From NCBI GenBank assembly GCA_025699025.1, contig JAILWJ010000003.1, positions 154,192-218,191 on the forward strand: a stretch of 64,000 nucleotides of DNA. The letters are read 5' to 3'. Below the pieces are notes generated by a model. The model was not told where the DNA came from. It saw only the letters and a program-made list of their open reading frames with translations, and did no database searches. The translations under genes were made by a program, and so were the position numbers. Of this stretch, positions 5,893-54,490 are shown piece by piece. The stretch comes from Nitrosarchaeum sp. Lineage in GTDB: Archaea; Thermoproteota; Nitrososphaeria; Nitrososphaerales; Nitrosopumilaceae. Positions within the stretch are counted from its first letter, which is position 1, and each line of letters opens with the position of its first letter.

Positions 5893-6774
5893 TTAAAACA
5901 GTTCCTCCAACAGATTTCCTTTTTCATCTATGTGCCTTATGTACAGAATTGAATCAGAATATCCTATCCATATTTGTGTAGAATCATTCAAGTTATACAC
6001 ATAGATGTGAATTCCACTGCCAATGTCTGCATCAGGTTGGCTAAACATATCAAAAATTTTATCAATATCTGGTGAGGTTAAAAGAACATTTCTAAAATCA
6101 CTTAATGTTGGATGTGGCTCTTTTTCAGGAAGAGTGTTTTCTGCATTTTCATGATTTGTCCATCCTCTTTCAATAAGATTGGTTTTAGTTTTTTGGGTAA
6201 CACACGCAGGAGAACCATCATATTTTGCGACAAGAATCAGATGTGCCTTGCACATTACATTTTCTGGATATATTCCAGACATCATCTGTTTTAAGGGCGG
6301 AATAACATCAGATGAATTTTTCGATATTTTTAAAACTGCAGCATAATCAGACGGGTTTATTGTAAGAGTATTGTTCGGATAGGGTTTTACATCAATTAAT
6401 TGTATTTGGTACTTGTCAAACACGGAAACTGACTCATTGTTAATTAGAACAATTTCTATTGAACTATCTTGGTACATTGCCGTGACCGTATCGTTATTGT
6501 TGAGAATAATTTTGTCAGTGCTGTCTTGGAATATTTCAAAGGCTAGACGAATTTGTCCTTCCCACACACATGTCACATCAGAAGGGCATCTAGAATCCTC
6601 CAATACTTCTAAAAACATCACTGTAAGATGTTCAGATGCAAACTCTGCAGGTTGTTGTGGTTGTATCTCAAATACAATTCCGGATTCGGAAATGTCTTGC
6701 AAAGATTGAGCGTTAACAGGTAAGAATCCAATGCCTACAAAAATCAGAAAAAACACAGAATATTTTATCATCAT
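5893..6774 (-). CDS. secreted two-domain protein
   Basis: 293 aa with a signal peptide (MMIKYSVFFLIFVGIGFLPV, cleavage near NAQ). The first domain (about 25-150) is beta-rich with RCPSDVTCVWEGQ, a Cys pair and Trp motif common in secreted proteins of unknown function. The C-terminal part has the C-x(8)-K...ACV...LIERGW module seen also in the 444-aa protein at 49111. ATG 6774 overlaps the TGA of the upstream zinc gene by four bases, so the two are translationally linked. Confidence 0.75.
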   Translation of the reverse strand: MMIKYSVFFLIFVGIGFLPVNAQSLQDISESGIVFEIQPQQPAEFASEHLTVMFLEVLEDSRCPSDVTCVWEGQIRLAFEIFQDSTDKIILNNNDTVTAMYQDSSIEIVLINNESVSVFDKYQIQLIDVKPYPNNTLTINPSDYAAVLKISKNSSDVIPPLKQMMSGIYPENVMCKAHLILVAKYDGSPACVTQKTKTNLIERGWTNHENAENTLPEKEPHPTLSDFRNVLLTSPDIDKIFDMFSQPDADIGSGIHIYVYNLNDSTQIWIGYSDSILYIRHIDEKGNLLEELF

Positions 6775-6977
6775 ATCCTCAGCAGAAGATCCTGATCCTT
6801 TCTATTTCTAGTGGAGTGTCTTACTCTTGCATTACAACATGGGCAGCGAATGAACCATCTCTCAAAGTAATAGTCACAGTTTCTGCAGAAGCTTCCACCC
6901 TCATGATATATTCTGTTCTTGTTTCCTTGAATAAAGTCAGTGCAGATGTTCTTGCATTGATTCACATATTGTTTCAA
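6771..6977 (-). CDS. small Cys-rich protein, paralogue of the 47683 gene
   Basis: 68 aa: CKNICTDFIQG..., then FCRNCDYYF and RCPCC...RH. The same order of motifs (IC-DF-QG, CRNC-YY, RCPCC, RH-RN) appears in the plus-strand gene at 47683, which argues that both are real. The two C-x2-C pairs form a zinc ribbon. Function unknown. Confidence 0.75.
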   Translation of the reverse strand: MKQYVNQCKNICTDFIQGNKNRIYHEGGSFCRNCDYYFERWFIRCPCCNARVRHSTRNRKDQDLLLRI

Positions 6978-10264: not shown

Positions 10265-10275
10265 TGTGGTATGCC
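10265..10275 (+). promoter_or_regulatory. TGTGGTATGCC motif at the start of module A
   Basis: Exact motif whose ATG is the start codon of the gene at 10271. Because it overlaps the coding start it may instead serve the divergent small gene at 10220, 45 bp away. Confidence 0.45.
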
Positions 10276-11134
10276 ATTAAATGAACAAGGGACGGTCTAT
10301 GGAAATTTGCATGCTTACAAAATGTATACAAGACCAACTGCTCAACGACTCTTTGGAGCATATTCATTTAGAAAAAAACAGGGGACCAAACATCATGAAA
10401 ATGTCCAGAAAACTTTAGAGGTTTTGGCACTGAATGGGACACTTACTACTTGGGGCATGGCAAAGGTGCAGCTTAGAGATTCAGAAGGAATTAGGACAAA
10501 GGAAAAAGAAAACAGAAGATTGCTTGTAGGTAGAATGGCAAGAGGTAAGCACACTATCGGATTACTAGAATCGGGATTAGTAGTGAAAGATGGAAAAAGC
10601 TATGCAAAAGCACCAGCTGATCAATATAGATTATCATTACATGGCATATTGTATTCTCTTGATGTTCTGGCGCTCTCAGACAAACAGATTGACATTATGG
10701 CAGAAAAATATTCCAAGGTATTGCCAATGGTTTTTGGAAAATGGGATTATCTGAAATCAAACATAGGCAGTGAGGTGTATCGATTGAAGAATCTGGCAGC
10801 AGGATTGTTTATGGACAATATACAGATCTCCAAGATTTCAAATTTTCCAGTATATGAGCTAATGACATATCTTAATGTAAAATATCAGAATAATTTTGAA
10901 CAGATAGACGAGGAGGATCTTGCAAATCAAATATCTATCTGGTTTTATACAAATTTGCTTGTTCCTGCGAGATTTAGATCATCATCAAAACATTCATCAT
11001 TGGAAATAAAGCAATGGAAGAAAATTATTCAAGGAGATAAAAATTTGAAAAAATGGTATTATGATTTTGTAAATGAGGCCATAAGTTTTTACAATCAGAG
11101 GTTTAACAAATTAAAAAAGTTGGAAAATACGTAA
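10271..11134 (+). CDS. winged-helix-like protein of signalling module A
   Basis: 287 aa, paralogue of the 286-aa protein at 43657 along its whole length. Residues 41-130 read like a winged helix: HHENVQKTLEVLALNGTLTTWGMAK (helix-turn-helix), then a second helix and the wing/strand GLVVKDG...YRLSLHGI. The C-terminal 150 residues are helical. No known output domain name. In both copies it lies tail to tail with a CheY-like receiver and its kinase. I infer that it is the DNA-binding output of this two-component pathway; it could instead be a scaffold. Confidence 0.7.
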   Translation: MPLNEQGTVYGNLHAYKMYTRPTAQRLFGAYSFRKKQGTKHHENVQKTLEVLALNGTLTTWGMAKVQLRDSEGIRTKEKENRRLLVGRMARGKHTIGLLESGLVVKDGKSYAKAPADQYRLSLHGILYSLDVLALSDKQIDIMAEKYSKVLPMVFGKWDYLKSNIGSEVYRLKNLAAGLFMDNIQISKISNFPVYELMTYLNVKYQNNFEQIDEEDLANQISIWFYTNLLVPARFRSSSKHSSLEIKQWKKIIQGDKNLKKWYYDFVNEAISFYNQRFNKLKKLENT

Positions 11135-11135
11135 C

Positions 11136-11501
11136 CTATGCGTATTTAGTAATTGTTTCTTCGAGCTGTTCAAAAGAATACGGTTTGTTAATAGTAGTAA
11201 GCAATGACATGCTCTTTGCCCTGAGATGTTTCTTCTCATCAATAGAAAATGCGGTTATCAATACAACTTTTGCTTCCGAGTCGAACTGTTTTATCTTAAA
11301 AAAAGCATCAAATCCATCCATTTTGGGCATTTTTATATCCATTATGGTCAAATCAGGGTGAATATCTTTGTATTTTAGAACTGCATCCTGTCCATCTTCT
11401 GCAGTAACTACGTCATAACCAATACTCTTTATCATATAGGCAGTATTCTCCAATAGATCAATATCATCATCCACAAGAAGAATTGTTTTCTTTAGTGACA
11501 T
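11136..11501 (-). CDS. CheY-like single-domain response regulator (module A)
   Basis: 121 aa, a receiver domain only. The acidic pocket D12/D13, phosphoacceptor D55 (TIMDIKMP), T83 (LITA) and K106 (NKPY) are all present. There is no effector domain, so phosphorylation must act through a partner. The stop is one base from that of the convergent winged-helix-like gene; the kinase gene lies 48 bp upstream on the same strand. Confidence 0.95.
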   Translation of the reverse strand: MSLKKTILLVDDDIDLLENTAYMIKSIGYDVVTAEDGQDAVLKYKDIHPDLTIMDIKMPKMDGFDAFFKIKQFDSEAKVVLITAFSIDEKKHLRAKSMSLLTTINKPYSFEQLEETITKYA

Positions 11502-11549
11502 GACAAAGATGTGATGTCATGTATGATAAAACTTTCTGAGAAAAGGGCT

Positions 11550-13436
11550 CTAATCCTCAGAGATAGGCAATGTAATGGTAAATCTAGTAGGATTGTTTTG
11601 GACAGATATTGAACCATCATGCTGTTCAACTACATGCTTGCATGTAGACAATCCCAATCCAGTTCCCTTCTGTTTGGAGGTGATAAGGGGATGAAAGATC
11701 TTAGGTAATATGTTGTCAGGTATACCTGGACCCGAATCCTGAATCTCAATTGTCACGATGGATTCTTTTTGTTGAATATTGCATCTAATTTCGCCCACAT
11801 TATTGCCAATAGATTGAACTGCATTCAAGAAAATATTAATAAAAACAATTTCCATTTTTCTAACGTCACATTTTATCTCAATATCAGAATCTGGAATAAA
11901 AACAGAAATGTTATCTGGGATTTCTAATGATTTTTTTGCTATCTGCAATAATTCACTTATTTTGATTACTTCTTTTTGCAACGGTGTTATTCGCACATAA
12001 TTCAGTACATCATCAATCTGATGAGATATTCGATCAATTGCCCTGTTCATTCTATTCACAACTTCATTTAATTCAGGATTTTGTTTATTGGTTCTTTGCA
12101 AGATATCCGCAGAGCTCTTAACAATACCAAGAGGGTTTTTCATATTATGTGCCATGCTAGAGGCAATCTCACCAATAGTGGTTAGTCGTTCATTTCTAAT
12201 TTTGACATGTGCCTCAGCTAGTTTTCTCTCCATATCTATCAATTTTTTTATATTATCTATCATCTCTTCAAACGAGTTACTAATGGTTTTAATCTCATCA
12301 ATGCCACTCTTTTTGATTGATACGTCAAACTTCCCCTGAGATATTGATTTTGCAATTTTTGTGAGATTTTTTAATGGAGAGGTAATAGTCGTGGAAATTA
12401 ACAATCCCCCAATTACTGAGGAGATCATTCCAATCACAGATCCTAACAAAATAGATTGGCGTAACTCTTCAAATTCGCCTACAATGGTAGAGGCATCCTG
12501 TGCAACAATGGTTATCCAATCAAATCCCTCAAATGTTCTATAACCAGTGGATTTTGCATATGAGATCAAATGAAAATTGTCAATATCGTCTTCCAATTCA
12601 AAGTATCCAGTATCTTTTCCATTTACAATGTCAACAAAATAAGGTACTGTGGAATTGGAAATGAATATTTTTCCATCAGAGACAACCACGTGACCCCGTT
12701 CATCTAATAACATAGCATTTCGTCCCGCAGTAACAAGAAGTTCTGATTCATCAATAAATCCCTCAACAAGATCATCTAGAGAGACAGATATTTGAAGAAC
12801 TCCAATAAATTTACCATTAACATCATTTACTCTAAATGCAAAATCCATCAAATAGCTTTGTGAGTTTTCGTTAAAGCGGATCTTTCCTGTATATTTTCCA
12901 GATGTTTTTGCTGTTTGCCACCACTCTTCATCACTTTGAAGATAGTCAGATGTTTCAGATAATAACGTAATGCCGATACCATAGGCATTTGTTACAATGA
13001 TTTCTTGGATTACATCATAATCGTATTCATCACGGTAAAATTCAATCGTATCTACAAGCTCATTGGTTAACATTTCATTGTTTAGGCTTTCAATGAATCG
13101 ATCTGTGTTTGTGATTTCAATTTGTTCTTTAGTATTAAGATATTGGTCAAAGTTCGGAATTTTTTCAAATTCTTGATTTGATTCTAGTAATGCAGCATGT
13201 ACAAGATTTAGATTTGTTAATTCCTCAAAATTTGATATTCGATCTTCTATGTGGTTATCTAATCCTTGCATCATATTGTATGCAAAATTCTCATTTCTTA
13301 CTCCTAGCAATTTCTTTATTTCGTTGACACTAAGATCAAAAGTAACTAATCCAAATACCGTAAATGTCAATGATATTGAAAACATTATTGCAATTATGAC
13401 AAAAGAGATTTTCAAGAGATTACTAGCCAAGATCAC
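11550..13436 (-). CDS. membrane sensor histidine kinase, Cache-HAMP-HisKA-HATPase (module A)
   Basis: 628 aa. TM1 about 10-30, a large outer domain with the Cache-like EEWWQTAKTSG segment (about 40-310), TM2 about 328-350, HAMP about 350-400. The HisKA phosphoacceptor is H430 (SMAHNMKNPLG). The ATPase domain has N box N538, D567-x-G569-x-G and GTGLGLS (591-597). It should sense an external small molecule and phosphorylate the receiver encoded just downstream. A TGTGGTATGCC motif lies 41 bp upstream of its start. Confidence 0.95.
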   Translation of the reverse strand: MILASNLLKISFVIIAIMFSISLTFTVFGLVTFDLSVNEIKKLLGVRNENFAYNMMQGLDNHIEDRISNFEELTNLNLVHAALLESNQEFEKIPNFDQYLNTKEQIEITNTDRFIESLNNEMLTNELVDTIEFYRDEYDYDVIQEIIVTNAYGIGITLLSETSDYLQSDEEWWQTAKTSGKYTGKIRFNENSQSYLMDFAFRVNDVNGKFIGVLQISVSLDDLVEGFIDESELLVTAGRNAMLLDERGHVVVSDGKIFISNSTVPYFVDIVNGKDTGYFELEDDIDNFHLISYAKSTGYRTFEGFDWITIVAQDASTIVGEFEELRQSILLGSVIGMISSVIGGLLISTTITSPLKNLTKIAKSISQGKFDVSIKKSGIDEIKTISNSFEEMIDNIKKLIDMERKLAEAHVKIRNERLTTIGEIASSMAHNMKNPLGIVKSSADILQRTNKQNPELNEVVNRMNRAIDRISHQIDDVLNYVRITPLQKEVIKISELLQIAKKSLEIPDNISVFIPDSDIEIKCDVRKMEIVFINIFLNAVQSIGNNVGEIRCNIQQKESIVTIEIQDSGPGIPDNILPKIFHPLITSKQKGTGLGLSTCKHVVEQHDGSISVQNNPTRFTITLPISED

Positions 13437-20361: not shown

Positions 20362-20481
20362 TCACTTATCATTCCGAATGAATTTATGACATCTGGTACA
20401 TTCGTACAATCCAGCATATCCTGCCATCTTGACTTTTGCATCATGCGGACATGTGTCTTGGGTTACAGTTCTGTACGCCAT
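20362..20481 (-). CDS. small CxxC/HxxC protein, 39 aa
   Basis: ATG 20481 to TGA 20362: MAYRTVTQDTCPHDAKVK...YECTRCHKFIRNDK. Ligands C-x-H and C-x2-C-H make one zinc site likely. It starts one base after the stop of the Cys-rich gene at 20483, as a two-gene unit. Confidence 0.6.
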   Translation of the reverse strand: MAYRTVTQDTCPHDAKVKMAGYAGLYECTRCHKFIRNDK

Positions 20482-20482
20482 A

Positions 20483-20581
20483 TTATGGCTCCCAATGACA
20501 ATCGCAATTACATCCCTTTTGGCAATGCACTCTCTTGCAATCAGAGCATATTTTTTGCCTATATGATGGCGCTGTATTCAT
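20483..20581 (-). CDS. Cys-rich peptide, 32 aa
   Basis: ATG 20581 to TAA 20483: QKICSDCKRVHCQKGCNCDCH, with six Cys and two His in 21 residues. High ligand density suggests zinc or copper binding. First gene of a two-gene minus-strand unit. Confidence 0.6.
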   Translation of the reverse strand: MNTAPSYRQKICSDCKRVHCQKGCNCDCHWEP

Positions 20582-20822
20582 AGTGTTATAATGCACTTTC
20601 ATCCTAATTAACACAACATTTGGAGAAACACTATAAGCAATATTCGATACAATACCAGTAACGTAGTGGTGTGAGTTTGCATATCTGAAAGGAAGGACTG
20701 AATTAACTACTCAGCTACGCAATGAACAATTCTGGAAATTACTGTCTTTATAAGCAAGATACTGCCCAACTGATCATGTTAAAAAGATTATTTTCAAAAC
20801 CTAAGGGAAGCCAAGAAACACG

Positions 20823-20948
20823 ATGATCACACTAAATGATTTGAAAACGTGTGAAAACTGTGGCAACATATTCTCAAAAAAGACATCAACCAAAATAGTA
20901 AATCGTTGTCCCGCATGTAATGTGTGGAAGAAAGACACCGTCGAATAA
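20823..20948 (+). CDS. zinc-ribbon microprotein, 41 aa
   Basis: ATG 20823: LKTCENCGNIFSKK...NRCPACNVWKK, two C-x2-C knuckles 17 residues apart. It is a clear paralogue of the gene at 21486 (LKVCSDCGTVYYGK...GICPSCH). Its ATG overlaps the stop of a 16-codon basic ORF (20776-20826). Confidence 0.7.
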   Translation: MITLNDLKTCENCGNIFSKKTSTKIVNRCPACNVWKKDTVE

Positions 20949-21043
20949 AGCCAAATAGACACGATTAATTAGAAACTCGTCACTAATTCATCCATTAATG
21001 TGTAAAAGATATTATTTAGGAAGCGAGCAAAAGATTTTTCAGA

Positions 21044-21319
21044 CTACTTGATTGTGATTTTATACTTGCAAAGCAAATCCACAAAAAACTTCAAGTCCTT
21101 TTTGTGATCCTTTTCTGCTTCATTGAATTCTTTGAGCAAATCCTTGTATTCATAGTCAGAGTGAGATTCCATCGATTCCAGTTTTACCTCGTTTTCTGAA
21201 ACCCTTTTGTGTATTTGTTTAATCTTGTTTTGTCCATATTCAATTATAGAGTCAATCTTATCTTGGTGTCCGGGTTTTGATGTGGCAGAATCATCAAATT
21301 TGATAGTGTCTGTGGTCAC
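21044..21319 (-). CDS. coiled-coil protein, 91 aa
   Basis: Soluble and highly charged; after about residue 20 it is one long helix with heptad-like spacing (IDSIIEYGQNKIKQIHKRV...). No family recognised. ATG or GTG start near 21319. Confidence 0.6.
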   Translation of the reverse strand: MTTDTIKFDDSATSKPGHQDKIDSIIEYGQNKIKQIHKRVSENEVKLESMESHSDYEYKDLLKEFNEAEKDHKKDLKFFVDLLCKYKITIK

Positions 21320-21485
21320 ACATTACTAGGCCATATCTAGTATATAGGATTGAGAAAGAAACTGTCTGTTTTGGATACTTTCCAAAAAATATTGGATAGT
21401 TATCAAAACACGATATTACAGTGATGCCATCAAGAACATAGTCGTACTCAGAAATGCTTAACTCCAAACAATGTGGTCATAGTAC

Positions 21486-21632
21486 ATGATAGATGTAGGG
21501 GATTTGAAAGTGTGTTCTGATTGCGGAACCGTGTATTATGGAAAATTTTCCAGAGGAATATGTCCAAGTTGTCATACCAATAATTATGAAAAGGTATCAG
21601 CTGACAGTGGCGTTGGAAGTTTGGACAGATAG
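21486..21632 (+). CDS. zinc-ribbon microprotein, 48 aa
   Basis: ATG 21486: MIDVGDLKVCSDCGTVYYGKF then RGICPSCH; two zinc knuckles. Paralogue of 20823, with the same DLK-C-x2-C-G beginning. The reverse-strand ORF over it is a shadow. Confidence 0.7.
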   Translation: MIDVGDLKVCSDCGTVYYGKFSRGICPSCHTNNYEKVSADSGVGSLDR

Positions 21633-21705
21633 AAACCATTCAAAATCACCACACAGTCAAGTTTTGTAATGAGTACCTAATATACAGAGTCGTACCTGTA
21701 CAAGT

Positions 21706-21822
21706 ATGAAATACTGCCATGATTGCCTTACTCCGATAAACCGCTATTCAAAAGAAGAGTATTGCATGCTGTGTTTAAGAGACAAAAAGTCTAAAGATTC
21801 AGAAAAAACAGCAGTGAATTAA
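21706..21822 (+). CDS. zinc-ribbon microprotein, 38 aa
   Basis: ATG 21706: MKYCHDCLTPINRY then EYCMLCLRDKK; two C-x2-C knuckles 16 residues apart, then a charged tail. A minimal zinc ribbon with no other domain. Confidence 0.65.
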   Translation: MKYCHDCLTPINRYSKEEYCMLCLRDKKSKDSEKTAVN

Positions 21823-21837
21823 TTCTGCATCAAGAAT

Positions 21838-21927
21838 CTAGTTGGATGTACATTCACATTTTTGCTGTTTTTCAAATCGAGGAAACTTTAGTTTATGACA
21901 GACTTCACAATACAGTTGGCTTGACAT
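21838..21927 (-). CDS. Cys-rich microprotein, 29 aa
   Basis: ATG 21927: MSSQLYCEVCHKLKFPRF then KCECTSN. Four Cys and a His; convergent with the gene ending at 21822. Confidence 0.5.
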   Translation of the reverse strand: MSSQLYCEVCHKLKFPRFEKQQKCECTSN

Positions 21928-22008
21928 ATCACTAACATAAAATGTATTCAAGTAAAAAGGAGCATCATACAACAAAACTAGCTAAACATACCATTCAGAA
22001 TCAACCAT

Positions 22009-22137
22009 CTAGCATGTCGTGACATGTCCAGATGTATCTAGCAGATTCCCACATGTTTGACACTCCCATTTATCAGAGTTTGATTGGGTGGGATCTAGAA
22101 TCCTTGGAGCATTACAAACCCTACATCGGATAGACAT
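22009..22137 (-). CDS. zinc-ribbon microprotein, 42 aa
   Basis: ATG 22137: MSIRCRVCNAPRIL then WECQTCGNLLDTSGH-V-TC; a standard zinc ribbon. Its ATG overlaps the TAA of the preceding finger gene (TAATG), so the two are translated together. Confidence 0.7.
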   Translation of the reverse strand: MSIRCRVCNAPRILDPTQSNSDKWECQTCGNLLDTSGHVTTC

Positions 22138-22241
22138 TATTTTGATTTTTCCATATGTGTTTTTTCATGTTCTCGTACTGTCTCAAAAGTATATGAGGTT
22201 CCTTCCCATCGGAAGCTACACTCCTTACATTGGTATTTCAT
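22137..22241 (-). CDS. single C2H2 zinc-finger microprotein, 34 aa
   Basis: ATG 22241: YQCKECSFRWEG...VREHEKTH, that is C-x2-C-x(16)-H-x(4)-H, nearly the whole protein being one finger. First gene of the pair with 22009. Confidence 0.7.
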   Translation of the reverse strand: MKYQCKECSFRWEGTSYTFETVREHEKTHMEKSK

Positions 22242-22397
22242 TTTACTTTTCTACTCCACATTATTTTGTTTTTTAAAATCGCTGGTTGCGTTTACGTCAT
22301 CAGTATTTTTATGATAACCAAATTTTAGTTTTTGAATTATTTTTTTGAACATGTCCTTATAGTGCTTTCCCTATGATATATACCAGAGTAAATTGAT

Positions 22398-22568
22398 TTA
22401 ATTGCAATATTTGCATGGAGAAAATTTTTCTTGGATTGCCTGATTGAGCGTGTCTGGAGTAAAGTACTGCATATCTCTCCTTTCTATGCAATATATTTTA
22501 CAGTCAGGTTTCATGACTGCCAAATGATGTACAACCATGTCTGATTTATTTCCAAGGTATCCTGACAT
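22398..22568 (-). CDS. small protein with two Cys pairs, 56 aa
   Basis: ATG 22568: MSGYLGNKSDMVVHHLAVM, then C...C and a C-terminal SPCKYCN. Starts four bases after the stop of the Lrp-type gene at 22573, so it is in that operon. Confidence 0.55.
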   Translation of the reverse strand: MSGYLGNKSDMVVHHLAVMKPDCKIYCIERRDMQYFTPDTLNQAIQEKFSPCKYCN

Positions 22569-22572
22569 GTTA

Positions 22573-22899
22573 TCACATAGTTGGTTTGCAGTGCAATGTC
22601 ATTGCACTTCTTACATTTGCCAGATTCCGTATTTTGTGAACAATGAATTTCTCTAACTGTTTAGATGTGATTGATTCAATTTTTGCTATAATGTCGTATG
22701 CGCCACATGTCTCTTGAACTTCCTTGATGTTGTCCAGATTACCAATTTCTGCCATGACACCCTCGAGTTTACCGTCATTGCATGTAATTAGAACATATGC
22801 TGCATTTGTTTTACACAGGCCGGTCTTACAATTACGGCAAACATACTCGCCAGACAAATTTTCGCATCCGCAAGCACAAGTACACGTATAATCATTCAT
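22573..22899 (-). CDS. Cys-rich N-terminus fused to Lrp/AsnC ligand domain
   Basis: 108 aa. Residues 1-30 hold eight Cys (YTCTCACGCENL, YVCRNCKTGLC), then a full RAM domain (about 32-105): AAYVLITC, NIKEVQETCGAYDIIAKIE, HKIRNLANVRSAMTL. No helix-turn-helix. The metal-binding head may replace the DNA-binding part of classical Lrp. Second gene 22398 follows at four bases. Confidence 0.85.
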   Translation of the reverse strand: MNDYTCTCACGCENLSGEYVCRNCKTGLCKTNAAYVLITCNDGKLEGVMAEIGNLDNIKEVQETCGAYDIIAKIESITSKQLEKFIVHKIRNLANVRSAMTLHCKPTM

Positions 22900-23096
22900 G
22901 AATTGAGCCCAGATAGACCCTACTCAACATGGTGTTTAATTGAAGAGCATTCCAAAAAATCATCTTGAGATAATCACTGTGCTCCATCCTATAAACGAAC
23001 GCAAGTACTCAAAATGCAAACAAAAAGAGATGGCATTACCAATTGTAATGTCCAAACCACATTCTGTATTGTTTTGAGAACTCATTGCAAACAACA

Positions 23097-23174
23097 CTAA
23101 GTAAAAGCCATGATTTCATCCTTGGCAAACTTTGCTCGAAGTCTTTCCTTTTCTTGTTCTTTTTTATTTTTCAT
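23097..23174 (-). CDS. possible 25-aa basic peptide
   Basis: ATG 23174: MKNKKEQEKERLRAKFAKDE... A charged helix with no family. The rest of 22900-23309 shows nothing else to me. Confidence 0.25.
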   Translation of the reverse strand: MKNKKEQEKERLRAKFAKDEIMAFT

Positions 23175-23309
23175 AAACAAAATTACTCAAAGTGAAATTT
23201 ATCCCAATATACACACAAACTGAAAAATTATTTAGGAATCACAGAAAAAATGGACATTCTTTTAGTTTTCAGAATTATGACTATAATATCACTGTAGACC
23301 ATCATATTC

Positions 23310-23411
23310 GTGGAAGAGATAACAAAGTGTCAGTGTCCTCCAGGTTCAGAGGGATATGAAAACGAAGACGGTATGCTAATCTGTTCCTCATGTAACGGAT
23401 GGGTTGAGTAA
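23310..23411 (+). CDS. zinc-ribbon microprotein, 33 aa
   Basis: GTG 23310: VEEITKCQCPPGSEGYENED then LICSSCNGWVE; C-x-C and C-x2-C. Followed four bases later by another Cys-rich gene; three such genes lie in a row to 23725. Confidence 0.55.
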   Translation: MEEITKCQCPPGSEGYENEDGMLICSSCNGWVE

Positions 23412-23415
23412 TAAA

Positions 23416-23565
23416 ATGTCGCTAGAAAATACAATCAAATTAGAACCATATACAGACTGTGAAAGATGCCACAATACATTTCCGCACTGTCATTGTACGT
23501 GCCCATATTGTGGGGAAAGAGATGACTGTGAATGTGCGTTGTTTGATGCAGCTACAGGAGGATGA
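23416..23565 (+). CDS. Cys/His-rich microprotein, 49 aa
   Basis: ATG 23416: TDCERCHNTFPHCHCTCPYCGE then DDCECA. Nine Cys and three His within about 30 residues, enough for two metals. It ends one base before the next ATG (23567). A longer frame over it in another phase is a shadow. Confidence 0.65.
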   Translation: MSLENTIKLEPYTDCERCHNTFPHCHCTCPYCGERDDCECALFDAATGG

Positions 23566-23566
23566 C

Positions 23567-23725
23567 ATGAATATTTACGACACAAAGCAGATACGTTGTG
23601 CGGTATGTAAAAAGGCAATAGGTGAGATAGACTACGATGCTGAAATATTTAGGCCAAAATGCGGACAGTGTGCAAATCCAACACCGCATCCAAAAGACAA
23701 GATGAATTATCTGATGTCACATTAG
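23567..23725 (+). CDS. MNIYDT-type zinc-ribbon protein, 52 aa
   Basis: ATG 23567: MNIYDTKQIRCAVCKKAIGEIDYD then KCGQCANP. The same start and spacing recur in the standalone gene at 51088 and at the N-terminus of the UspA fusion at 53819, defining a mobile zinc domain of this lineage. Confidence 0.75.
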   Translation: MNIYDTKQIRCAVCKKAIGEIDYDAEIFRPKCGQCANPTPHPKDKMNYLMSH

Positions 23726-23742
23726 ATGCAATCAGAAATGGA

Positions 23743-24273
23743 TTATTTTTCAAATCCCTGATTTTCAACTATGTTTAGTGTGCTAGTTGATTTGATATTT
23801 GGAATTTTTCTTATCTTGTTTGTTAAAATATCAGATATTTCATTGTAAGACGGAGCAACGACTTTGCAGATTATCTCATATGAGCCAATCAGGACATTGC
23901 ATTCAATGATTTCAGGGATTTGTCTTAGGTTTTCTATAATTTGGGATTCTCCGGAACGGTTACAATGAATAATCACAAATGCCCTTGTCATATGTTGTTC
24001 CAGTACTTCAGTTTCGACTTTGGTTGTTTTTCTAAAGCCACTGCCCCTGATGATCTCAAGGGTTAATGTGGAACGTATATGCGGTATTCTCCTTAATCTA
24101 CGTGAGATGTCTTGTTCTAGCTTGGTTTCATCAGCAGATTCAAATTTTGTAAGCACGTCAAAAGTTCCAAAAGTCCCATATGCTGCCTTGACAGTCTCAA
24201 TATTTCTCAGAGCAGATATAACAGAGTCGTCAGTTCCAGTCTCATTTACCAGTAAAACATAGTACTCAGACAT
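23743..24273 (-). CDS. tandem Lrp/AsnC ligand-binding domain protein, 176 aa
   Basis: Two RAM domains (about 3-75 and 92-170) without helix-turn-helix, the same architecture as the gene at 4983. Each has a (Y/A)V...N-x-(T/S)G start, an (A/C)YG/I-GSY turn and a closing ST-T-LEI/NIV strand. Located four bases after the single-domain gene 24277. Confidence 0.85.
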   Translation of the reverse strand: MSEYYVLLVNETGTDDSVISALRNIETVKAAYGTFGTFDVLTKFESADETKLEQDISRRLRRIPHIRSTLTLEIIRGSGFRKTTKVETEVLEQHMTRAFVIIHCNRSGESQIIENLRQIPEIIECNVLIGSYEIICKVVAPSYNEISDILTNKIRKIPNIKSTSTLNIVENQGFEK

Positions 24274-24276
24274 GTG

Positions 24277-24516
24277 CTAATTCTGCCCCTCAATTCCCAT
24301 GAGAGTAAGGGTGGATCTGACATTGTCTATTTTTCTAATGTTCCAGATGATTATCTCGCGCAGTCTTTCTCTTTTGTCATGTTCAACCTTTGCTATAACA
24401 TCATAAGCGCCAAATGTTCCATGTACCTCCTTGACAGAATCTATGTGTTTGAGATTTTCAATTATATCCGTCTCTTTGCCAAACTCACTAGTGATTAAAA
24501 CAAAAGCAGTTACCAA
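24277..24516 (-). CDS. single Lrp/AsnC ligand-binding domain protein, 79 aa
   Basis: TTG start at 24516 (MVTAFVLITSEFGKE). One RAM domain: VKEVHGTFGAYDVIAKVE and RKIDNVRSTLTL. These stand-alone RAM proteins bind amino acids and can pair with full Lrp regulators. Operon with 23743. Confidence 0.85.
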   Translation of the reverse strand: MVTAFVLITSEFGKETDIIENLKHIDSVKEVHGTFGAYDVIAKVEHDKRERLREIIIWNIRKIDNVRSTLTLMGIEGQN

Positions 24517-43656: not shown

Positions 43657-44517
43657 TTGACTGAAATAAAACCTGGCATTTTAGGAAATCTATATTCTTA
43701 TAAGATGTATGCAAGGCCCACAGCAAGAAGATTATACGGTGAATTTTCATATCGAAAAAAAGAGGTTCCAAAACATCACGAAAACATACAACGAATGCTG
43801 CACGTACTTGCCATACACGGACCGCAGACAACATGGGGGATGGCAAAAGTGGAACTTTCAAACGACACATCAAAGATCAGAGCAAGAGAGAAACAATACA
43901 GAAAATTTCTTGTAGGTCGAGACGATCGCGGAAGGCATTCTGCGGGAGTTCTTGAGACGGGATTGGTGGTTATTGATGGAAAAAACATGCTAAAGACGCC
44001 TGCAAACATCTACCGACTGTCAATATACGGTATTTTGTACTGTTTAGACGTCTTAGATCTCACAAATAAGGAAATTGACATGATGGCAGAGCAATATAGA
44101 AAGGTAATTCCAGGAATTTTTGGTAGATGGGAGTATCTCAAGGAGACCATAGGCAAAGACGTTTACAGGCTAAGACTTTTGGCCAAGGGGTTGTTTTTAG
44201 ACAACATTCAGACAACAAAGATTGCAAAGATGCCAGTTTATGAGATTCTGACATACCTGTCAACAAAATATCTTGACAATTTTGAACACATTGAGGAATC
44301 TGATCTTGCAGAACAAATCTCTTGTTGGTATTATACACAGTTGTTGATTCCCAGAGATCCTCACAAAAAAAACTCGTTAGTAGAGTACCATCAATGGTAC
44401 AAACTAATCACAAAAGGAGACAAGGAATTAAAGGAAATGTATCAGAAATTCCTAGACGAGGTAACCGAATTTTATGAAAGTAGATTCAAGATTGTAAAAA
44501 AACTGAAAAGACTATGA
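43657..44517 (+). CDS. winged-helix-like protein of signalling module B
   Basis: 286 aa from TTG 43657. Paralogue of the protein at 10271 over its full length, keeping GNL-YKMY-RPTA, KHHENIQRMLHVLAIHGPQTTWGMAK, GLVVIDGK, YRLSIYGILY and the C-terminal FNF-type helices. Its end overlaps the convergent receiver gene by six bases; the A copy is one base apart. It is the likely DNA-binding or adaptor output of the kinase-receiver pair; this is inferred from the winged-helix look and from the repeat of the set. Confidence 0.7.
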   Translation: MTEIKPGILGNLYSYKMYARPTARRLYGEFSYRKKEVPKHHENIQRMLHVLAIHGPQTTWGMAKVELSNDTSKIRAREKQYRKFLVGRDDRGRHSAGVLETGLVVIDGKNMLKTPANIYRLSIYGILYCLDVLDLTNKEIDMMAEQYRKVIPGIFGRWEYLKETIGKDVYRLRLLAKGLFLDNIQTTKIAKMPVYEILTYLSTKYLDNFEHIEESDLAEQISCWYYTQLLIPRDPHKKNSLVEYHQWYKLITKGDKELKEMYQKFLDEVTEFYESRFKIVKKLKRL

Positions 44518-44883
44518 GTTCAAATACTTGTTAATGGTATCTTCGAGTTTTTCAATATCATATGGTTTTCCTATGGTTTCTAATAATGACATGCTTTTAG
44601 CTTTAAGATGTTTTTTTTCATCCACATTATATGCTGTAATCAGAATAACTTTTGCATCAGAATCAAATTCTTTAATTTTAAAAAAGGCATCAAAGCCGTC
44701 TTGTTTTGGCATTTTGATGTCCATAAATGTCAATAAAGGCCGGGCAGATTTGTAAACGTCAACAGCTTCTATTCCGTCTCTTGCAGTAATGACTTCATAT
44801 CCAAGTGTTTCTATCATATATGCAGTATTTTCCAATAGTGGAAGATCATCATCGACAATCAAGATCAGTTTGTTTGAGATCAA
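44512..44883 (-). CDS. CheY-like single-domain response regulator (module B)
   Basis: 123 aa receiver domain with D12/D13, D55 (TFMDIKMP), T83 and K106 (GKPY) in the same places as in module A, and the same K-KHL-AKSMSLL helix. No effector domain. Encoded 26 bp after the kinase. Confidence 0.95.
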   Translation of the reverse strand: MISNKLILIVDDDLPLLENTAYMIETLGYEVITARDGIEAVDVYKSARPLLTFMDIKMPKQDGFDAFFKIKEFDSDAKVILITAYNVDEKKHLKAKSMSLLETIGKPYDIEKLEDTINKYLNS

Positions 44884-44909
44884 GGTACCGACATTTTTTG
44901 AATTTGTAT

Positions 44910-46799
44910 CTATTTATCTCTCTCTACATTATCTATAACCACATGTTTTGGAAAAACAATGGTGAACTTAGTGGGGTCGTTCTGTGCATAGATCGAACCC
45001 CCATGTTGAGCAATCACATTTTTGCATGTAGCCAAGCCCAGCCCAGTTCCCTGAAGCTTGGTGGTAAACAAAGGCTCAAAGATTTTGTGTAAAATCTCCT
45101 CAGGTATTGGCAAACCGCTATTTTCTATTTCGATTTTGTATGCATTGCCAACATCCGTGGTAGAAAATATGATCTCCCCAGGTTTTTCTCCAATTGCCTG
45201 AATTGCGTTCAGTATGAGATTTATCAAAACAATTTCCATTTTTTGTTTGTCGCATTCAATTACTACGTCTTGTTTGGGAAATGTGACTGTAATGGAAGGC
45301 GGAATCTGAATTGAATTTATTGCGTTATCTATCATCTGAATAAGATTTGTTTTAGTTAGATTCATGGGAGTAATGCGTACATATTCTAAAACCTCGTTGA
45401 TCTGATGAGAAATTCTGCTTATTCCCTCGTCCATGTTCAAGAGTACCTTGCCAACTTTCTCATCTTGGCTGCCAAATTTTCGCTTCAATACATCTGTTGC
45501 AGTTTTTAATATTGCCAGGGAGTTTTTCATGTCATGGGCCATGCTGGCAGATAATTCCCCTATTGCAGTAAGACGCTCATTTCTTACTTTTACCTTAGAT
45601 TCTGCCAGATCCTTTTCAGTCTGAATGAGTTTCTTTAAAGACATTGCAAAATTGTTGTATGAACTTGAAAGAATGTTGATCTCATGTATGATGTTGGGTT
45701 CTGCACGGACATCAAAATTTCCAGAAGACAATTGGTTGTAGATTTTTGCTAATTTTCCAAGAGGATTTGAAACAAAAATTGTAATCATGATACCAATCAC
45801 GATTGTAACTATGGCACCAATGATTGATGGAAAAACAAGCGAATTTCTCACATCATCTAATGATGTAATGATGTTTGCTTTGCTTTGCTGAATTACAGCT
45901 ATCCATCCCAGTCCAGTTTTTGAATTGGCGGACTTGGAATATGACAAGACATGAGTAGAGTCATCAAGAGAAAATTCAAAACTTCCCTCTGTATCACTTA
46001 GTTGAGCAAAATACGAGGCTGTCATATTTTCCCCATATTTTATACCGTCAGAATAGATTATCTGACCACTGTCATCTAGAAGGACGACTTGTTTGCTTTG
46101 TTCATCAAGCAATATAGCATTACTAGTGAAATCGGATAGTAAATGGTCTAGTGCAATCAAGACCCGTATGGCACCCAAGAATTTGCCATTTTCATCTGAG
46201 ATTGATATTCCCAAAGGTACAGAGTATGAACCGTATTCTGGAAAATACTCTACATCACCTACATAGATTCCATCAGATTTTGTGGTTTGCCACCATTCTT
46301 TGTCATACTGTACATAACCAGACATCCCCAAAATCGGTACAATGTTTGCACCATATGCATTTGTTACAAAAAACTCATCGGCAAAATCAAAACCATACGT
46401 CTGATCATAATTTGCAATTATTGAAGACAGTTCATTTAGGTGTCTCTGCTCTACAGCTTGCGTGATAAATGGGAGGTATCGACTGTAGTTTTTATAAGAA
46501 AAAGTCTTTTCCTCTACATATGCATCAATATCTGGAATTTTTGAAAATTCTTCGTTAGATGATTGTAAAATTTGTCTGATTTCTTTTGCTTTTTCTAGAG
46601 ATTGAAAATCAGATATTCGCTTGTCGATAAATAAATCAAGATTCTGGATTAGGCTGTTTGTAATGACTTGGTTTTTTAACGCAGTTGATTCAACGAGTTG
46701 CTCAGAATTCACCTCAAATGTAACATAACCCTGAATAACATAAACAGTGGAGATAATTGTCATTCCAACTATCAATAGATAGATAATTCGTATACGCAA
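44910..46799 (-). CDS. membrane sensor histidine kinase, Cache-HAMP-HisKA-HATPase (module B)
   Basis: 629 aa from TTG 46799. TM1 about 5-25; Cache-like outer domain with DKEWWQTTKSDG; TM2 about 322-345; HAMP to about 395; HisKA H422 (SMAHDMKNSLA); N box ILNAIQAI and GTGLGLATCK. Same design and size as kinase A, but the outer domain differs most, suggesting a different signal. A motif TGCGGGGTGCC lies 37 bp upstream. Confidence 0.95.
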   Translation of the reverse strand: MRIRIIYLLIVGMTIISTVYVIQGYVTFEVNSEQLVESTALKNQVITNSLIQNLDLFIDKRISDFQSLEKAKEIRQILQSSNEEFSKIPDIDAYVEEKTFSYKNYSRYLPFITQAVEQRHLNELSSIIANYDQTYGFDFADEFFVTNAYGANIVPILGMSGYVQYDKEWWQTTKSDGIYVGDVEYFPEYGSYSVPLGISISDENGKFLGAIRVLIALDHLLSDFTSNAILLDEQSKQVVLLDDSGQIIYSDGIKYGENMTASYFAQLSDTEGSFEFSLDDSTHVLSYSKSANSKTGLGWIAVIQQSKANIITSLDDVRNSLVFPSIIGAIVTIVIGIMITIFVSNPLGKLAKIYNQLSSGNFDVRAEPNIIHEINILSSSYNNFAMSLKKLIQTEKDLAESKVKVRNERLTAIGELSASMAHDMKNSLAILKTATDVLKRKFGSQDEKVGKVLLNMDEGISRISHQINEVLEYVRITPMNLTKTNLIQMIDNAINSIQIPPSITVTFPKQDVVIECDKQKMEIVLINLILNAIQAIGEKPGEIIFSTTDVGNAYKIEIENSGLPIPEEILHKIFEPLFTTKLQGTGLGLATCKNVIAQHGGSIYAQNDPTKFTIVFPKHVVIDNVERDK

Positions 46800-47682: not shown

Positions 47683-47886
47683 ATGATGTATTGCAAAGAA
47701 ATCTGTACTGATTTTGTCCAAGGAAAAAGAACACAGATATACGATAATAATGGCTGCTATTGCAGAAATTGTGAGCGATATTACAAGGAAATGTTTTCAA
47801 GATGCCCCTGTTGCAACAGCTTAACAAGGCATAAACGTAGAAACAAGAGATCCCTAAAACTTACAGAGTCAGACAATCAAAAATAA
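47683..47886 (+). CDS. small Cys-rich protein, paralogue of the 6771 gene
   Basis: 67 aa: CKEICTDFVQG, then YCRNCERYY and RCPCC...RHKRRNK. Order, spacing and many residues equal the gene at 6771. Two zinc knuckles. The opposite-strand frame is a shadow. Confidence 0.75.
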   Translation: MMYCKEICTDFVQGKRTQIYDNNGCYCRNCERYYKEMFSRCPCCNSLTRHKRRNKRSLKLTESDNQK

Positions 47887-50695: not shown

Positions 50696-51091
50696 TTGGA
50701 AGTCAAACAGATATGCCTGTATGATGACGCATGCAACCAAATTTGCCAAGTTCCAGGAATCAGGTTTTCAGCAATAATTAACAAAAGAGGAAGAAAGATT
50801 GCAGGTGGATTCAACGCCAAAGTCACACCACTAGAAAAAGACGAGCAAAAAATGGAGATGCTATTCATGGAGACTACGCTTGACTTCTCAATGAGAAAGG
50901 AATTTGATGAGTCATTAGGGGGCATACATGCCATTGTATCTTACAGAGACAAGGTCAACATCATCACAATCCCATATCAGGACAACCTGATCTTGCTATC
51001 AGTGGAGTCAGGACTGGATGTTTCCAAGGTTATTCAAATTGTACATCAAAAGTTCACACACAATAGAATCATGGAGGCAATGATCCAATGA
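50696..51091 (+). CDS. DUF6659-like / roadblock-like protein, 131 aa
   Basis: TTG 50696 preceded by GGAGG 15 bases upstream. Alpha/beta pattern: IRFSAIINKRGRKIAGGF, then two helices and SYRDKVNIITIPYQDNLILLSVE. It resembles the family I recall as DUF6659 in ammonia-oxidising archaea, and has a roadblock/profilin-like order of strands. Paralogues at 54687 and (more distantly) 60982. First gene of a three-gene unit. Confidence 0.65.
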   Translation: MEVKQICLYDDACNQICQVPGIRFSAIINKRGRKIAGGFNAKVTPLEKDEQKMEMLFMETTLDFSMRKEFDESLGGIHAIVSYRDKVNIITIPYQDNLILLSVESGLDVSKVIQIVHQKFTHNRIMEAMIQ

Positions 51092-51273
51092 ATATCTATG
51101 ACACTAAAATGGTAATATGTACAAAGTGTAAAAAAACAATAGGTGAAATCGACTTTGAAGCTACAGCATATCATGTTCTATGTAGGCAATGTTCAAGTCC
51201 ATCACTAGAAAGTAAAATGCATCATGATCACAATTATCAGGATTCTTTGCTAAAGACTCCTCGTGTAATATGA
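51088..51273 (+). CDS. MNIYDT-type zinc-ribbon protein, 61 aa
   Basis: MNIYDTKMVICTKCKKTIGE...LCRQCSS; near copy of the gene at 23567 and of the head of 53819. ATG overlaps the previous TGA by four bases, and its own stop overlaps the next ATG. Confidence 0.75.
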   Translation: MNIYDTKMVICTKCKKTIGEIDFEATAYHVLCRQCSSPSLESKMHHDHNYQDSLLKTPRVI

Positions 51274-53818: not shown

Positions 53819-54490
53819 TTATTTGGCTCCTACTTTTTGTTTCATTTTGTAAAATGGAACTCCTTCTCCATGCCTTTGTAATTTCTTTTTGGTAGTTGAT
53901 TTTTTTCTGAATTTTGATATTTTTGTATCAAGTTTGGAGGATTTTTCTTTAACCAACAAAACTGGAATGTCAGATGCATGCATGACATAGTTTGATATGC
54001 TTCCAAAAACTATCTCTTTTATTGGTCCTTTTCCTGAAGAACCCATTATGATTAGATCATATTTTGATTTTTTTGCAACTTTTACAATCATTTCTGCCTC
54101 ATCGCCTTTGACAATTCTGTGGTTTGCAACAACGTTCTTGTTTTCACAGTAAATTTTTGCTTGCTTGATTGATTTTTCTGTATGTGTCCGAATTTTTTTA
54201 GACATTTCATCGTACGGTGTGCCTGATTTTACGCCAGGCATAGCCTTCATCAGAGTAATTGACGCACCCAGGTGTTTGGATAGATAAATGGCAGTGTCTA
54301 GTGCCTTTGTAGATTTTTTTGTAAAATCTACAGGCACAAGTATTTTATCAATTCCTTTATGAATAATGTTTTTTTGTTTTTTATTGCATCCACTGCACAG
54401 TGGAAATATCAAAGTGGAGCCAAGGTCTACTTCTCCGATAAATTTGCCACATACAGAGCATTTGATCTGTCTTGTGTTGTAGATATTCAT
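53819..54490 (-). CDS. MNIYNT zinc ribbon fused to UspA domain
   Basis: 223 aa. Residues 1-38: MNIYNTRQIKCSVCGKFIGE...LCSGCNKK, the same zinc domain as the genes at 23567 and 51088. Residues about 45-185: UspA (KILVPVDFTKKSTKALDTA, IIMGSSGKGPIKEIVFGSIS with the G-x2-G-x9-GS ATP motif). A basic tail follows. The fusion suggests the zinc domain guides stress proteins to a target. Confidence 0.9.
   Translation of the reverse strand: MNIYNTRQIKCSVCGKFIGEVDLGSTLIFPLCSGCNKKQKNIIHKGIDKILVPVDFTKKSTKALDTAIYLSKHLGASITLMKAMPGVKSGTPYDEMSKKIRTHTEKSIKQAKIYCENKNVVANHRIVKGDEAEMIVKVAKKSKYDLIIMGSSGKGPIKEIVFGSISNYVMHASDIPVLLVKEKSSKLDTKISKFRKKSTTKKKLQRHGEGVPFYKMKQKVGAK

Follow-up and report, generated by a model that had tools for sequence, protein, structure and literature searches.

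What is a short segment of an archaeal genome doing with a dozen protein genes of 29-56 codons, most of them marked by paired cysteines? The question is raised by a 64-kb window (G000:C3:154192-218191, the whole stretch of DNA that was analysed) from the genome of a Nitrosarchaeum sp. (1.7 Mb, four contigs), in which the region under study, 20362-23725, holds twelve genes for Cys/His microproteins of 29-56 amino acids (aa), named m1-m9 and m11-m13, and one 108-aa Cys-headed open reading frame (ORF), m10 or m10-RAM, that ends in a RAM domain, the ligand-binding domain of Lrp/AsnC proteins. The initial annotation, made from the sequence, had proposed twelve tiny genes and a Cys-headed Lrp-type ORF here, most of them with two Cys pairs; all were recovered in place, on both strands, and most of m1-m13 have the two pairs, while m9 has one C-x2-C pair. 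Our preferred reading, to which we give a probability of roughly 0.6, is that these are small metal-site adaptors that would work with stand-alone RAM nutrient sensors, one of them (m12) being derived from a protein of the 2-oxoacid:ferredoxin oxidoreductase (OFOR) operon. The genes are as follows.

m1, 20362..20481, minus strand: 39 aa, CPH...C-x2-CH, downstream partner of m2; seven relatives, ratio of nonsynonymous to synonymous differences (pN/pS) about 0.19.
m2, 20483..20602, minus strand: 39 aa, CxDC-x4-C-x3-CxCDCH; ATG start, with a GTG start at 20614 possible.
m3, 20823..20948, plus strand: 41 aa, CENCG...CPAC of zinc-ribbon type; m4 paralogue.
m4, 21486..21632, plus strand: 48 aa, CSDCG...CPSC of zinc-ribbon type; pN/pS about 0.13.
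m5, 21706..21822, plus strand: 38 aa, CxxC...CxxC.
m6, 21838..21927, minus strand: 29 aa, CEVCHKLK...CEC; pN/pS about 0.14.
m7, 22009..22137, minus strand: 42 aa, CxVC...CxTCG of zinc-ribbon type; overlaps the m8 stop.
m8, 22137..22241, minus strand: 34 aa, single C2H2-type finger, C-x2-C-x16-H-x3-H.
m9, 22398..22568, minus strand: 56 aa, C-terminal FxPCKxC; weak Ada-type likeness, the first half-site not conserved.
m10-RAM, 22573..22899, minus strand: 108 aa, seven-Cys head CxCxCGC-x8-C-x2-C-x4-C followed by a RAM domain, no helix-turn-helix (HTH).
m11, 23310..23411, plus strand: 33 aa, GTG start, CxCPPGS...CxSC.
m12, 23416..23565, plus strand: 49 aa, tandem C-x2-C-x6-CxC / C-x2-C-x5-CxC, tail ALFDAATGG.
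m13, 23567..23725, plus strand: 52 aa, MNIYDT..C-x2-C..IGE..C-x2-C.
Double stand-alone RAM protein, 23743..24273, minus strand: 176 aa, convergent with m11-m13; PF01037 in two stretches, E=7e-25.
Single stand-alone RAM protein, 24277..24516, minus strand: 79 aa, 3 nucleotides (nt) upstream of the double RAM gene; RAM match at 24301-24507.
91-aa protein, 21044..21319, minus strand: charged, probably helical, without a Cys-pair motif; conserved in G003 (78%); a bystander or a partner.

To judge whether frames this short are genes, the initial annotation had pointed to dN/dS, to synteny in related genomes and to the Cys pattern in relatives; it had also remarked on their density. The region has 8 ORFs of 25-80 aa with at least two Cys pairs; order-1 shuffles give an expectation of 0.59 and, over 300 of them, a maximum of 3. 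Under a stricter filter (intergenic ORFs) it has 6 in 3.4 kb, against about 0.27 expected from the 32 such ORFs in a 400-kb sample of the same genome (Poisson P about 4e-7). A joint query with all microproteins matched 46 of 61 genomes, the own genome counted, and every one of the 13 proteins has relatives in further genomes of the Nitrosopumilaceae, in many cases with the gene order kept, on contigs named Nitrosopumilus, Nitrosarchaeum and Nitrosotalea; m2 is present in 86 of 136 family genomes. All 13 show pN/pS of about 0.1-0.4 against the window copy, values skewed low because the relatives were found via protein similarity and with pS near saturation, and third codon positions vary most. 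The same or similar gene order recurs in other genera. In the five aligned families (m2, m8, m10, m12 and m13) the ligand columns are invariant or nearly so: C5, C8, H25 and H29 of m8 are invariant across 16 sequences, the seven Cys of the m10 head are conserved, as are all Cys and His of m2 and the eight Cys of m12 (one copy of each family lacking one Cys), and in m13 the first Cys pair is invariant and the second almost so. These ligand positions are the best conserved of their alignments, so that the outcome which the initial annotation had named as a refutation, a Cys pattern not kept in relatives, did not occur. Chance ORFs are ruled out by the shuffle and genome-sample counts, the relatives elsewhere and the pN/pS ratios, and the twelve microproteins and m10 are, as judged from sequence comparison, real genes conserved across the family.

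It is also evident that the genes are organised. Several had been thought to be translationally coupled, and the spacings bear this out: the gaps are 1 nt between m2 and m1, 4 nt between m10 and m9, 4 nt between m11 and m12 and 1 nt between m12 and m13, while the m8 stop overlaps the m7 start as TAATG. The short operons are m2-m1, m8-m7, m10-m9, m11-m12-m13 and the two RAM genes. The final codons of m12, ACA GGA GGA TGA (window 23550-23566), contain a GGAGG resembling a Shine-Dalgarno sequence ahead of m13, so the conserved TGG tail of m12 may be partly an RNA signal. A promoter search was limited to a simple scan for TATA-like patterns and was uninformative.

Three links point to a function, and two of them, the RAM fusions of m10 and of m12, concern RAM proteins. 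PF01037 (AsnC_trans_reg; gathering score 25) matches the ORF at 22573 with 37.1 bits (E=3e-9) and that at 23743 with 87.2 bits; neither has an HTH hit, and the 32-aa head of the former is Cys-rich, as expected from the initial annotation, which had seen a Cys-rich head joined to an Lrp domain. The ORF at 24277 is identified as a RAM protein by a tblastn match only, and it has no HTH because 79 aa leave too little length for one besides the RAM domain. All three resemble the stand-alone RAM proteins DM1 and STS042 in having a RAM domain without an HTH and, unlike them, bear or adjoin Cys-rich heads or microproteins (PMC2995911). A RAM gene lies within 600 bp of 9 of 12 m11 copies, 12 of 18 m13 copies, 33 of 97 m12 copies and 5 of 13 m10 copies; among random positions of the window's genome the share is 0.8%. 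The m10 head stands alone as a protein in one locus (L020, CSP1-1) but is fused to RAM in the window and in G003, and in L046 and L055, two other Nitrosopumilus bins, a single ORF encodes a RAM domain followed by m12. Sensor domains of one type are thus joined to two different microproteins, to the first at the front end and to the second at the rear, which is good evidence that they act jointly. Amino acids are ligands of RAM domains, and for DM1 a response to 2-oxoglutarate is reported (PMC2995911). The role of stand-alone RAM proteins has been called unclear (PMC2995911).

The third link concerns the origin of m12. Its commonest relatives have no RAM gene nearby; OFOR-alpha follows directly downstream in 50 of 59 such loci, at a median of 53 bp, and is followed by beta (identified by NCBIfam NF041170/NF041171, archaeal 2-oxoacid:ferredoxin oxidoreductase), and the own genome also has an OFOR-linked copy (L132:6659-6778). 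A search of 300 genomes of the phylum with an m12 profile found relatives in 63, which represent the own family, two more from its order and another two families; outside the own family, 13 of the 15 copies inspected lie just upstream of OFOR alpha-beta (families f2, f8 and f18), which is not the case in f40. A tree of 77 m12 copies separates OFOR-linked from RAM-linked sequences with support of 100/99, its inner forks being untrustworthy because it rests on 41 columns. Sequences from the distant families fall within the OFOR side, and the RAM-linked clade is therefore most simply a duplicate that arose within ammonia-oxidising archaea (AOA). RAM, m12 and OFOR-beta are adjacent in four loci (L046, L053, L055 and L059), and three of these four copies branch first on the RAM-linked side. 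The window m12 shares its Cys columns with the OFOR-operon microproteins, falls into the same family by tblastn and hidden Markov model searches and stands in the sister clade of the tree. By these comparisons, it belongs to the OFOR-operon microprotein family by descent.

The position before OFOR also fits a different view, in which m12 serves OFOR as a redox or electron-transfer subunit, its eight Cys binding Fe-S rather than zinc, the RAM-linked copies being redox-responsive regulators. The ancestral m12 is the first gene ahead of OFOR alpha-beta, and OFOR is present in all AOA, which keep only the (ab)2 type and have lost the (abcd)2 type (PMC7554672). However, the tandem C-x2-C-x5-6-CxC spacing of m12, which would leave room for two metal sites, differs from the ferredoxin pattern C-x2-C-x2-C-x3-CP, and there is no Pfam or NCBIfam ferredoxin hit; m12 was rejected on the same grounds as an OFOR delta (2[4Fe-4S] ferredoxin) subunit. 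It corresponds to no known subunit of the (ab)2-type OFOR whose operon its sister clade heads, and a redox role seems improbable.

Two further observations were made at m12 loci. A shorter second m12 paralogue (YTKCxxCxxxLLxCDCNCPKCGKRExCxC) often stands beside the RAM-linked m12 (L036:6251-6343, L038:6262-6354, L043:2403-2495 and others). A divergent neighbour of the OFOR-linked m12, an ORF resembling D-2-hydroxyacid dehydrogenases by the look of its sequence, occurs in 49 of 59 loci at a median of 72 bp (L065-L111 and others).

The gene order in relatives shows how the field was put together. The module m4-m6-m7-m8-m3-m2-m1 has the same or a similar order in at least three genera (g1, g11 and g14): m4-m6-m7-m8-m3-m8'-m2-m1 within 1.4 kb in g14 (L012, and similarly L014), m4-m6-m7-m8-m3-m2 (L176) and m7-m8-m3-m8-m2-m1 (L016) in g11, and m8-m7-m6-m4-m10RAM-m8 (L010) and m3-m8-m2-m1 (L018) in the window's genus. 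In L016, m8 and m7, which are coupled in the window, form one ORF. In a second module, m11-m12-m13 faces one or two RAM genes (L013, L015, L040, L042, L043 and others), with the double RAM gene adjoining m13 or m11 in L013, L015, L019, L040, L042 and others; the window keeps this module intact at 23310-24516. On this gene order, the field was assembled from older modules, which other Nitrosopumilaceae also have separately. Since it merges modules shared across genera, it is for the most part not the local nursery of duplicated adaptors that had been suggested as one possibility: m3 and m4, proposed as paralogues, do share 42% over 33 aa and, with the m8 copies, are duplicates of a local type, but the other families are distinct and old, occur in other genera and show no obvious mutual likeness beyond their Cys pairs.

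Could the clustering then be a matter of genome organisation, with independent metal-site microproteins of unrelated functions, like those of haloarchaea, lying in one permissive, intergenic-rich segment? The genes do occupy both strands, grouped into a number of short operons, the modules are found apart in relatives, and the neighbours of m2 vary by genus: its copies often adjoin Usp and CBS genes and sometimes TFB genes. For Haloferax volcanii, 49 C(P)XCG u-proteins are reported, and deletion of a set of them gave mutants with diverse phenotypes (PMC11241148, PMC6562870). Yet the order m4-m6-m7-m8-m3-m8-m2-m1 is kept in g14 and partly in g11 and g1, m8 and m7 are coupled in the window and fused elsewhere, and m10-m13 are strongly linked to RAM, so that we consider full independence unlikely. 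As to m2 itself, a role as a TFB-specific partner is weakly supported, with TFB within 1.4 kb in 6 of the 46 copies listed, two of these six being one locus counted twice, and with Usp and CBS being commoner.

According to the adaptor reading, each microprotein would have one or two metal ions, zinc being the most likely, at the centre of its fold and would serve as a small adaptor that docks onto proteins or nucleic acids. RAM proteins with amino acids or other small metabolites as ligands would be the partners of m10 and m12 at least and, to go by linkage, of m11 and m13 as well. The ancestor of m12 would be the microprotein at the head of the OFOR operon, a metal-stabilised adaptor that may once have served OFOR alone and was then duplicated; the likely mechanism, and the simplest, is that a RAM protein senses the amino-acid or 2-oxoacid pool and acts through m12 on OFOR or on its gene or expression. 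The remaining members, m1-m9, are probably adaptors for other regulatory targets, as the neighbours of m2 in relatives may indicate. More tentatively, and with rather less than even confidence, amino-acid-sensing RAM domains may have captured the m12 duplicate in AOA and given rise to ligand-controlled regulatory subunits of central carbon metabolism; this field would then be one site of a system that pairs RAM domains with metal microproteins. The regulatory layer of small proteins proposed at the outset, read as a set of adaptors, finds support from the RAM fusions of m10 and m12, the position of m11-m13 near RAM, the Usp, CBS and TFB neighbours of m2 and the m12 sister clade in the OFOR operon.

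Several points weigh against this reading, beside the low bias of pN/pS and the short alignment behind the m12 tree. Translation, metal binding and any contact with OFOR are what we infer from sequence, and neighbourhood and fusion indicate linkage rather than contact. The window m12 adjoins RAM genes and not OFOR, so that an OFOR role of this copy would follow by descent only. In L059, RAM and m12 are in two separate frames and stop codons interrupt that of OFOR-beta, and this locus may therefore be decayed or misassembled. The AlphaFold2 model of m12 was poor (pLDDT 58) and was left unused, and RAM fusions were not seen for m1-m9.

The richness in Cys allows still another explanation, namely that the CxCxC-rich m2, m10 and m12 are metallothionein-like and buffer or store metal, either copper or zinc, for an ammonia oxidiser that depends on copper. 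These three have 7-8 conserved Cys/His per 30-45 aa and CxC runs. However, m12-type proteins also have strongly conserved non-Cys residues (GERDxCECALFDAATGG), the OFOR and RAM linkage and fusions speak for another role, and no metal transporter or chaperone was recognised within the field. We regard metal storage as very improbable.

In comparisons with known families, none of the microproteins tested reaches the cut-off of a Pfam or NCBIfam model (the NCBIfam comparison covering all but m6, the m10 head and m11), no field sequence passes the model of the HVO_0758 family (NF041912; m4 reaches 13 against 70 bits), and the m12 profile found nothing significant among solved structures. The archaeal zinc-finger u-proteins, studied in Haloferax (PMC6562870, PMC10716476 and PMC11241148), are likewise single-domain proteins below 70 aa that have paired Cys; genomes encode many of them, for the most part with an undetermined mechanism. 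Like them, m3, m4 and m7 bear C-x2-C(G) pairs, and unlike them, several field members have 7-8 Cys and CxC runs. According to PMC11241148, zinc binding predicted from Cys motifs is unreliable. The parts of the three papers that were covered contain no mention of the conserved field order, the RAM fusion or the OFOR linkage. Brz of Halobacterium salinarum (PMC2253796), a tiny zinc-finger protein directly upstream of the gene it regulates, has a position comparable to that of the ancestral m12 before OFOR, with an unrelated target. In the open-access literature searched, no account was found of the field, of RAM-microprotein fusions or of a small OFOR-operon protein of the m12 type; small archaeal zinc-finger proteins and stand-alone RAM proteins are known kinds, and the RAM/OFOR pairing was absent from the papers searched.

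For individual members, m8 has the C-x2-C...H-x3-H ligand pattern of C2H2 zinc fingers and a predicted beta-beta-alpha fold (AlphaFold2, mean pLDDT 87.5), and differs from them as a single stand-alone finger; it scores 14 bits against a cut-off of 27 for Pfam zf-H2C2_5, and Foldseek gave no significant hit, the best C2H2-type match being SALL4 (E=6). Identification of m9 as an Ada domain (Ada_Zn_binding) was rejected at 19.5 against 23 bits, with the second Cys replaced by N/Y in relatives; of the two Cys beyond the C-x2-C pair, the second is not conserved. Heads of the m13 type (MNIYxT...CxxC...IGE) also occur in the window as a stand-alone protein at 51088-51273(+) and fused to UspA at 53819-54490(-).

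Elsewhere, Cys-rich proteins of 60-77 aa (C-x3-C...RCxxC...RCPCC...LR..R with a basic tail; the one copy compared with Pfam matched no family) form a dispersed family, with at least four copies mutually similar by BLAST in the 400-kb sample (L112:12389-12574, L114:1803-2036, L116:15979-16197, L126:1718-1900) and look-alikes in the window at 6771-6977(-) and 47683-47886(+). Window 10271-13436 and 43657-46799 hold parallel, apparently duplicated cassettes that, by the look of their sequences, encode a 286/287-aa protein, a response regulator and a histidine kinase.

These results show that genes of 29-56 codons can be validated from the conservation of Cys ligands together with operon order, even where proteomics is lacking. 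The majority of AOA proteins this small have no assigned function, and the field offers a set with testable partners, the RAM sensors and OFOR. If the adaptor reading is true, an overlooked protein would be added to a well-studied enzyme operon, and the sensing of amino acids or 2-oxoacids would be tied to carbon metabolism in microbes that rank among the most abundant of the sea.

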